From: Thermolongibacillus altinsuensis | Lineage (GTDB): Bacteria; Bacillota; Bacilli; Bacillales; Anoxybacillaceae | Direction: 5' to 3' | Length of the DNA stretch: 64,000 nt | Assembly (NCBI RefSeq): GCF_004341205.1 | Contig: NZ_SLUL01000004.1 | Location: 124,001 to 188,000, forward strand | Shown here: in pieces, positions 33,217-35,011 of the stretch | How the letters are laid out: each line of letters begins with the position of its first letter | How positions within the stretch are numbered: the first letter of the stretch is position 1 | The notes under the pieces: model-generated | Databases searched by the model: none | What the model was told of the DNA's origin: nothing | The model's input: only the letters and a program-made list of their open reading frames with translations | Made by a program: the position numbers and the translations under genes

Positions 33217-33271
33217 GTCTCATAATGCCATTAGCGGCAAGATTTTTTTCTTACCGCTAATAGCATGAGAC
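33217..33271. terminator. Long hairpin between the EAL gene and the peptide gene
   Basis: GTCTCAT-ATGC-ATTAGCGG-AAGA pairs with its complement across a loop of T's, with a few mismatches. It lies between the convergent EAL and peptide transcripts. The T run is in the loop rather than after the stem, so it is not a standard terminator. Confidence 0.55.
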
Positions 33272-33346
33272 GTGAAATGCATACGATATTTTTATTTGGA
33301 GAAGTAGAAGGAAAATTTTAAGCTAATTCTTAAACTATAAAACTTT

Positions 33347-33433
33347 TTATTTTAAGTTACCAGGAACAGATTTAGAAAGTCTTCCTGAATTAGACGCTGC
33401 GACTGGAGATACCGCTGGACGTAAAATACGCAT
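33347..33433 (-). CDS. 28-residue peptide, candidate RiPP precursor
   Basis: ATG 33433 to TAA 33347-33349 encodes a peptide beginning MRILRPAVSPVAASNSGR, followed by ten residues rich in Ser, Lys, Pro and Asn. The ribosome site GGGAGGTG at ideal distance is among the strongest in the window. It starts one base after the stop of the radical SAM/SPASM gene, so the two are surely co-transcribed. It has no Cys, Trp, Tyr or Phe, carries a net charge of about +5 and has three prolines. The pairing with a peptide-modifying enzyme suggests a precursor. I know no matching family. Confidence 0.7.
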   Translation of the reverse strand: MRILRPAVSPVAASNSGRLSKSVPGNLK

Positions 33434-33434
33434 C

Positions 33435-34793
33435 TCATTCACCTCCCCCTACTTCAACATTTTCTATGTTAGAGTTGCATAAAGATTGCTGCGCATGAAT
33501 CAAGCGCAACACTTGTTTGATTTTTCGCTTTTCGTAAGAACATGGACGCTTTCCTTTACGTATGCGATACAACGGACAGTGATTTCCTTGACAAGCAGGA
33601 CGGAAAAAGCATGCTTGACACGTTTCATCCTGCTCTTCGCCCGAAGTAACCCACAATGCCAATTTATCAAAGTCGATGTCCATTGTCCCATCGGCATCAA
33701 GCCATCCAACATGGTTGTATTCTTCATGAAGAAAACAAGTACATTTATATACTTGGCCGTTTGAGCCAATCACGAACGAATGTGGTTTGGCAGCATAACA
33801 AATCGCCCCAGTAGGCATCAATATCGACTCTATAATCGAACTCATACTTAACCCTTTGTTGATTCCGAATTCCGTAAACTCCCATATTTTCGTTTCTGCT
33901 GTACGATGATCGCAGATCGGTAAACCTTCATCGTTCGCTCCTCCCCATCTTCCAACAGGGCGGCAGAAAATTTGAAAACGCGAGTCTCCCGCAAAATAAC
34001 CTGCAAGCTCTTCTAAAAAAGATGGAACGTGCGAAAGATTATCTTCATCAAAATTAATGCGAATGTAAATTTCAAAGGAGTCATCTAATTTTTGTATTTC
34101 TAATAAATGGTTCAAGATCGTTTCGTACGTAGGACCACCGTTCGTCAAAGCTCTGCGGGAATCATGCACATCTTTGCTTCCATCAAGCGTAATCATAAAG
34201 CGATTGACTTTATATTTTAATAACTTTTGCAACGTTTCTTTGGATAAAAAGTATCCATTTGTCGACATTTCAGCTTGATAGGTGACGCCATGACGGCTCG
34301 TCAATTCTAATACCGTTTCGCTTAATTCTTCAATGATGTCATATGCTAATAACGGTTCCCCACCGAACCAACTGATTGTAAGATGCTCTAATTTAGGAAT
34401 TTTATTGGTTAAAAAGCGTTTTAAACCGTCGATCACATCACGGCTCATGTTTCCGCGCGAAAAATCTTGATAACAGTATGTACAACGGAAATTGCATGCT
34501 TCTGTAGGAAGTATAATTAAATGCATCGCGTCCGTTCTATGTAATGTTTGGTGCAAAAACTGCGCCCGCTTCTCCTCATTTACGTGCTCTGGAACGAGAA
34601 ACCCACACTCGGCAAGCATTTTTTCAATAGGTAATAATTCTCGATCGATCCCGTTACGCTTTAATGCTTGCAAAACAACCTCTTTCTCTTCCTCTGTCAC
34701 CGTACAGATTGCCCCTGTATAACTGTTGTATAGAATAAGTTCGCCGTTTTCTGCTTGCGAAATCGCATTAAATCTCGATGGAATCCATTTCAT
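33435..34793 (-). CDS. Radical SAM/SPASM peptide-modifying enzyme
   Basis: The 452-residue protein has an N-terminal region MKWIPSRFNAISQAENGELI like other peptide maturases. The radical SAM cluster motif CNFRCTYC follows (Cys100, Cys104, Cys107), then SWFGGEPLL and the barrel segment STNGYFLSK. A C-terminal SPASM domain has many cysteines (ICYAAKPHSF, VYKCTCF, CQACFFRPACQGNHCP), which should hold auxiliary iron-sulfur clusters. Such enzymes crosslink or epimerise small ribosomal peptides, or mature quinohaem proteins. I prefer ATG 34793 with AGAAGGG; GTG 34805 is an alternative. The only adjacent substrate candidate is the peptide just downstream. Confidence 0.92.
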   Translation of the reverse strand: MKWIPSRFNAISQAENGELILYNSYTGAICTVTEEEKEVVLQALKRNGIDRELLPIEKMLAECGFLVPEHVNEEKRAQFLHQTLHRTDAMHLIILPTEACNFRCTYCYQDFSRGNMSRDVIDGLKRFLTNKIPKLEHLTISWFGGEPLLAYDIIEELSETVLELTSRHGVTYQAEMSTNGYFLSKETLQKLLKYKVNRFMITLDGSKDVHDSRRALTNGGPTYETILNHLLEIQKLDDSFEIYIRINFDEDNLSHVPSFLEELAGYFAGDSRFQIFCRPVGRWGGANDEGLPICDHRTAETKIWEFTEFGINKGLSMSSIIESILMPTGAICYAAKPHSFVIGSNGQVYKCTCFLHEEYNHVGWLDADGTMDIDFDKLALWVTSGEEQDETCQACFFRPACQGNHCPLYRIRKGKRPCSYEKRKIKQVLRLIHAQQSLCNSNIENVEVGGGE

Positions 34794-35011
34794 CGGTTCT
34801 AACACCCTTCTTTATAAAATCATAGAAGCAAACAAGCGGTTTAACCGTTAAATACGTCACATAACCGAATATCTTTTTGCCTTCTTTTTCATTTCGTCTA
34901 TCACAAAAGCTTCGACGCTACGGAACTATTGTAAGAAAATAAATAGACATCTCCCCATCACTTTCTTGAACGTTATATGAACATTTTGCAAAAAAAATTT
35001 GACATGAAATC

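Follow-up and report, generated by a model that had tools for sequence, protein, structure and literature searches.

A 64,000-nucleotide stretch of the genome of Thermolongibacillus altinsuensis (the window, by which we mean this whole stretch) carries on its minus strand two adjoining genes, one for a radical SAM/SPASM peptide maturase of 452 aa (33435..34793) and one, directly behind it, for a conserved 28-residue peptide, MRILRPAVSPVAASNSGRLSKSVPGNLK (33347..33433, stop codon included), and by sequence comparison numerous Bacilli have the same pair, with only slight changes in the peptide. It is very likely that the peptide is the enzyme's substrate, although this is inferred and no modification or product has been seen, and it is highly likely that the two genes form a RiPP cassette, in which the peptide would be gripped by its N-terminus and modified in its core by the radical SAM/SPASM enzyme. 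The Cys-free peptide very probably represents a novel type of modified peptide, the chemistry of which is unproven; that its modification is undescribed is an inference, no residue having been shown to be modified. The preliminary description of this DNA had already proposed a RiPP, a reading which is now supported by conservation and co-occurrence, with the modification itself still inferred.

The two genes are tightly packed. The enzyme frame runs uninterrupted from a conserved ATG at 34793 (the mechanical ORF opens instead at a GTG at 34805) to a stop at 33435, one base before the peptide ATG at 33433, and the peptide stop ends at 33347. The 20 bases 5' of this ATG (agtagggggaggtgaatgag) contain a GGAGGTG-type ribosome site, GGGGGAGGTGA (33439..33449, minus strand, read from the sequence), and so both the one-base spacing and the strong ribosome site noted in the preliminary description hold. 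An alternative GTG at 33442 would give a peptide of 31 aa, the common start in relatives being the ATG, and a second, overlapping 28-aa frame (33352-33438) is interrupted in most relatives. The direct neighbours of the pair are an EAL gene and a metallo-hydrolase gene. Between the EAL and peptide genes lies an imperfect long inverted repeat (gtctcat...atgagac, 33218-33272), which was seen by eye and not scored as a terminator.

The cysteines of the CxxxCxxC core (C100, C104 and C107; PF04055, 68.9 bits) and of the SPASM region (C332, C351, C392, C395, C401, C406 and C418) are invariant in 19/19 aligned enzymes, with a CX4C at one spacing where the SPASM pattern has CX3C. The enzyme also has about 85 extra N-terminal residues, which is where RRE domains lie in such enzymes. 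It passes no curated NCBIfam cut-off among the best 25 of 77 families, TIGR04463, TIGR04334 and NF052473 included. The highest scores, those for TIGR04463 (216.7 bits, cut-off 525) and the Clo7bot maturases (178.3 bits, cut-off 600), fall far short, and the name of TIGR04463 refers to Cys-rich peptides whereas the window peptide is Cys-free.

Enzyme relatives occur in 20/41 family genomes (E up to 1e-20, which lets in 45% relatives and fragments), in 14/299 order and 21/398 class genomes (both E up to 1e-60) and at 18 loci of a named collection; a phylum search at E up to 1e-60 found the enzyme in 2/398 genomes (the window's own and one with a 40% relative), and 79 plasmid records carry relatives, every one below 60% identity. 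The peptide is present at 33 of 38 enzyme loci, or 31/36 once duplicate places (L034/L046 and L035/L047) are merged, always on the enzyme's strand and starting between 53 bases before and 349 after the enzyme end; this set leaves out L020, L021, L022, L024, L026 and L027 (copies, partial or broken) and L028-L033, which are named copies of genomes already included. The loci without a peptide are L050, whose contig stops 272 bases past the enzyme, and L019, L023, L053 and L054, whose enzymes are 40-45% identical. Furthermore, separate class-level searches of 398 genomes with the enzyme (at least 50% identity) and with a peptide profile (E < 1e-5) returned the identical 12 genomes (G000, G005, G821, G884, G892, G907, G931, G978, G1064, G1080, G1135 and G1143), the match in G884 being a partial enzyme with two stops, and none of the nine class genomes whose best enzyme relative is 36-43% identical has a peptide match under E 1e-5. 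A peptide frame not conserved next to orthologous enzymes, which the preliminary description had named as grounds for refutation, is thus not what is found.

At order level, the peptide search gave 14 strong matches in 13/397 genomes, and an enzyme, whether intact or broken, adjoins every match except one. The exception, L059 (G030:C49:21010-21093), is an intact peptide gene with a ribosome site and no enzyme within 3 kb, in a genome which elsewhere has only a 45% enzyme relative; save for this orphan, the pair meets what is expected of a RiPP precursor, a short conserved gene paired with a modifying enzyme. Nine weak rows of the 23 at order level (E 0.002-0.01), seven of which lie inside frames of at least 184 aa, were set aside as chance, as was the class-level match L111. 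These searches scored only the best candidates per genome, namely 20 when the peptide was sought and 4 or 5 when the enzyme was, and absences are therefore not complete. Since broken or partial enzyme copies occur in G021, G023 and G884, the system is dispensable. On contig C1 of G023 (L022, L026 and L027), there are two broken enzyme copies with a peptide frame behind each, one of which overruns the usual stop.

The peptides themselves were compared as 30 distinct sequences from 38 peptide-bearing loci, 31 of which encode 28 aa, six 27 and one 29. The collecting pattern, which demanded M1, V/I-P-G, N/S/H and L/I/F, matched all 38 loci supplied, and these cover the strong order- and class-level profile matches, directly or as the same place. 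The corresponding columns owe part of their constancy to this demand: Val (29) or Ile (1) at position 23, Pro24 and Gly25 in 30/30, Asn (23), Ser (6) or His (1) at position 26 and Leu (28), Ile (1) or Phe (1) at position 27. Lys21 (window numbering) was not required and is nonetheless found in 30/30, position 22 is Ser in 26, Thr in three and Ala in one, so that Ser/Thr precedes position 23 in 29/30, and Arg18 is replaced by Lys or Gln in some. The idea of a peptide always of 28 aa with an invariant Gly17 was discarded, as lengths run from 27 to 29 and both Gly17 and Ser22 vary.

That the peptide gene is under purifying selection is indicated by its substitutions, with a pN/pS of 0.14 for 15 family sequences (14 distinct at the DNA level) and 0.37 for 28 peptide sequences. 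The two other forward frames are broken in 29/38 and 32/38 loci (last two codons excluded), and pN/pS, the co-occurrence of enzyme and peptide and these interrupted alternative frames together rule out a chance ORF. Genes of 28 codons are easily overlooked in annotation, and the peptide has no family match in NCBIfam or Pfam at E up to 0.1.

Cys, Tyr and Asp are absent from all 30 distinct sequences, Trp occurs only at residue 3 of two Paenibacillus peptides, Phe once, at position 27, and Glu in one, so that neither the core Cys of sactipeptides and ranthipeptides nor the aromatic core residue of cyclophanes and Trp or Tyr crosslinks is available. The preliminary description had excluded these classes from the single window peptide, which is indeed without Cys, Trp, Tyr and Phe, and the residue content of the wider set excludes Cys-, Trp- and Tyr-based classes likewise. 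The peptide is undescribed among the literature matches listed, those for its core strings being unrelated throughout, with the reservation that it could figure among the 22 pathways in the supplement of PMC9062424.

How might such a peptide be recognised? The enzyme model (pLDDT 73.6) has a core closest to anSME and ChlB. anSME tops the structure list (Z 18.3) and shares the radical SAM/SPASM fold; it aligns only to model residues 88-442, and its Asp following the position of SPASM Cys351, presumably the catalytic D277, is absent from the window enzyme, which has Thr352 there (Thr or Ser in 19/19 aligned enzymes). The best full-length folds, N-terminal part included, are TigE (PDB 8vpo; Z 17.2 over 362 residues) and CteB (5wgg/5why; Z 16.2-16.7), at an identity of only 14-18%. 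In a fusion model, in which one stop codon of the Kurthia locus L045 was read through so as to join enzyme and peptide, a strand is predicted for peptide residues 2-5, which are numbered 454-457 in the fusion (block mean pLDDT 74), and residues 463-480 (peptide from residue 11) are unplaced (pLDDT <50). Because the model turns peptide residues 2-5 into a strand, the peptide N-terminus is likely to be the enzyme's handle, a prediction for which the strand partner was not seen. Leaders bind RRE-type domains by strand addition, with which this strand fits. The enzyme's N-terminal domain would thus grip the peptide start, M-K/R-aliphatic-aliphatic-R/K-P-A (in the window, putatively residues 2-6, RILRP, 33416..33430, minus strand, by inference from the Kurthia model), and the radical SAM/SPASM core would then modify the fixed C-terminal K-S-V-P-G-N-L (proposed core, residues 21-28, KSVPGNLK, 33350..33373, minus strand, which rests on conservation in the 30 distinct peptides).

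Further hints come from descent. In a 46-row tree (without L056, near-copies, L055, L127 and L129), a branch supported at 100/100 sets the 36 peptide-bearing enzymes apart from the remaining rows; long branches come together in the outgroup and leave the true sister group uncertain. Outside this VPG group, three of six enzymes belonging to a single family (L122, L124 and L125; 42-43% identical) have tiny downstream peptides of 21-23 aa in one to three copies, preceded by GGAGGTGA ribosome sites and ending in NCNC or NCNCG (e.g. MKWIVKAAQERKATGNNNNCNCG). The same script found none downstream at L121, L123 and L126. As in the window pair, the enzyme comes first, an order which the preliminary description had considered less common, and the N-terminus is similar (MKWIVKA, against MKWIRPA in Paenibacillus VPG peptides), but the end is Cys-Asn-Cys instead of VPGNL. 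These peptides match no named family that we know of and are perhaps another unannotated precursor family. At L019, L021 and L023, and likewise at L121, peptides lie about 240 bases upstream of related enzymes and end in NTNCGGC or GNCHIC (NCGGC at L019, NCHIC at L121). On Deinococcus plasmids (L055 and L056), a 39-40% enzyme sits directly behind a gene labelled as MsnO8-family oxidoreductase or alkane 1-monooxygenase, and one of these loci lies near lantibiotic dehydratase genes. As several enzyme relatives adjoin Cys peptides, the window group looks, from these comparisons, like a Cys-free offshoot of a family with Cys peptides. Production of thioethers by these relatives is an inference, as is the direction of the change in the window group, a loss of Cys and not a gain.

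Since Ala occurs at position 22 and the anSME base is missing, Ser22 is unlikely to be a common target, and Lys21, Val23, Pro24 and Leu27 therefore remain the likely first candidates, none of which has been shown to be modified. Lys21 is favoured by its invariance, Val23, the site that we prefer, because only Val or Ile occurs there in a T/S-V context as in TvgA. Chemistry on aliphatic residues has precedent because TvgB converts Val to cyclopropylglycine in the TVGG repeats of TvgA, these proteins being encoded in a five-gene cluster with a peptidase and transporters (PMC9062424). TvgB is of SPASM type like our enzyme, and its target, an aliphatic residue with T-V-G surroundings, is comparable to the proposed one; it differs in its repeated motif and five genes, where the window pair has one site and two genes. 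Hydrogen abstraction at Val23, which might lead to cyclopropylglycine as in TvgB or to a bond that links Val23 with Lys21 or its neighbours, is inferred and should be seen as a serious possibility with somewhat less than an even chance.

Formation of cyclopropylglycine at Val23 as in TvgB, or of the methyl form which TigE reportedly makes from Ile, would agree with a position 23 that is Val in 29 peptides and Ile in one, nearly always after Ser or Thr, and with the rank of TigE among the two best full-length folds; it is made doubtful by Pro, not Gly, following Val23, by a single site without repeats and by CteB, a thioether enzyme said to work on Cys peptides, scoring equally well or better. 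Equally doubtful is the alternative that Lys21 or Arg18 replaces the lost Cys and is joined to a side chain close by through a C-N or C-C crosslink, for which speak a Lys21 retained in every peptide with no demand for it in the collecting pattern and the Cys borne at the same end by the peptides of the three related enzymes. An invariant Lys may serve only for binding, however, Arg18 is not fixed, and we know of no SPASM enzyme that crosslinks Lys through a C-N bond. It is also conceivable, and to us improbable, that the peptide is an unmodified small functional protein or regulator, with the enzyme acting elsewhere or being bound and controlled by it: conservation extends over much of the peptide and variability is not clearly divided between leader and core, no protease is linked across genera and one peptide is an orphan, yet the peptide tracks one enzyme group only, no other gene is common to all loci, and three related enzymes have downstream Cys-core peptides of like N-terminus. 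Oxidation of Ser/Thr22 as in anaerobic sulfatase maturation, suggested by the likeness of S-V-P-G-N to the sulfatase motif S/C-x-P-x-R and by the top rank of anSME, is excluded as a common function by the Ala22 variant and the missing catalytic Asp, and with the motif's Arg replaced by Asn, Ser or His it keeps only a very slim chance.

Beyond the pair, little is shared. A conserved operon was rejected, since among ORFs of at least 70 aa in 19 stretches (flanks up to 5 kb) the enzyme alone is common to all. Recurring ORF families sit at differing places across genera and none is found in more than five stretches (e.g. an EAL-type family in the window, L031 and L032, F13 in L028, L031 and L032, F23 and F24 in the window and L028, F27-F29 in Calidifontibacillus and Schinkia). 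No protease or exporter recurring across genera was found in these 19 stretches, with Pfam run on 22 neighbours. The earlier claim that no transporter or protease adjoins the pair is right for the window's direct neighbours, though in Paenibacillus stretches Pfam identifies MFS, FecCD-type and ABC genes, the MFS and FecCD-type genes some kb from the pair. The gene order in Paenibacillus is YwiC, enzyme, peptide, ScdA/hemerythrin, radical SAM (NrdG-like) and NRDD. A core that hardly varies and the lack of a protease or exporter recurring across genera argue against a bacteriocin, and the nearly fixed core favours a conserved product, either a signal or something like a cofactor, over a diversifying bacteriocin.

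Expression of the pair may respond to oxygen. Upstream of the enzyme gene lies an Fnr-type box, TGTGACGTATTTAACG (34846..34861, minus strand), which has 9/10 consensus positions (one mismatch) and is equalled by 4/300 shuffles, followed after 21 bases by the -10-like hexamer TATGAT (34819..34824, minus strand). The motif, TGTGA-N6-T(A/C)ACA with 10 scored positions, corresponds to the Fnr consensus and was defined after viewing an alignment. Tests on the window plus 28 loci and then on nine near and six distant loci (excluding L022, L041, L043, L044, L046, L047 and L066) gave 9-10 positions in 20/38 loci with enzymes of at least 50% identity (19/29 and 1/9), in 19 of which the distance from the box to a TANNNT hexamer is 21 or 22 bases, presumably class II activator spacing. 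In 18/38, with Kurthia, Calidifontibacillus, Schinkia and Paenibacillus represented, the box is absent or weak, matching at most 8 positions (loci below 9 include L008, which has lost part of it, L034, L035, L048, the Kurthia loci, L039, L040 and L113-L120), and none of the six distant loci reaches 9, their scores being 7 or 8. Paenibacillus has an 8/10 box upstream of YwiC. Seven of the 20 boxes are equalled by 2.7-4% of shuffles (first-order Markov samples), the counts are inflated by related rows, and the names of box-bearing neighbour genes and of the YwiC-like gene beside L082 were assigned by eye.

In the window's own genome the exact motif is found 17+15 times, at 19 distinct sites, and the reversed control 1+1 times. 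Seven of the 19 fall within C1:37-58 kb, shortly ahead of narG (C1:58747); TGTGAAATATTTCACA-like sites in this genome may be Rex instead of Fnr sites. Two of its three CRP/FNR proteins end in CxxCxxxxC, as does Bacillus Fnr, and anaerobic NRDD is absent from it. Among family genomes, narG is found in 13/14 with a full enzyme of this group versus 15/27 others (Fisher p 0.015, with no correction for kinship; G021 and G023, whose copies are partial or broken, were placed among the enzyme-less genomes), and G040 has the enzyme-peptide pair without narG. Low-oxygen expression through an Fnr-type regulator is therefore probable in many hosts, as an inference for which no transcript has been seen.

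Going further is speculative. A lineage of Cys-peptide maturases may have lost the Cys of its substrate and now carry out an undescribed reaction on K-S/T-V-P-G-N-L (a Lys-to-Val or Lys-to-Pro bond, for example), the product of which would be a low-oxygen signal or cofactor for Bacilli and not an antibiotic, a possible scenario and no more than that. As a two-gene system with a probable substrate, fixed residues and a known natural Cys-bearing comparison, the pair is tractable in the laboratory. If a SPASM enzyme does act on a peptide without Cys or aromatic core residues, this would extend the known range of radical chemistry, and the physiological role of a RiPP that hardly varies and is linked to low oxygen would, if true, be an unusual one.
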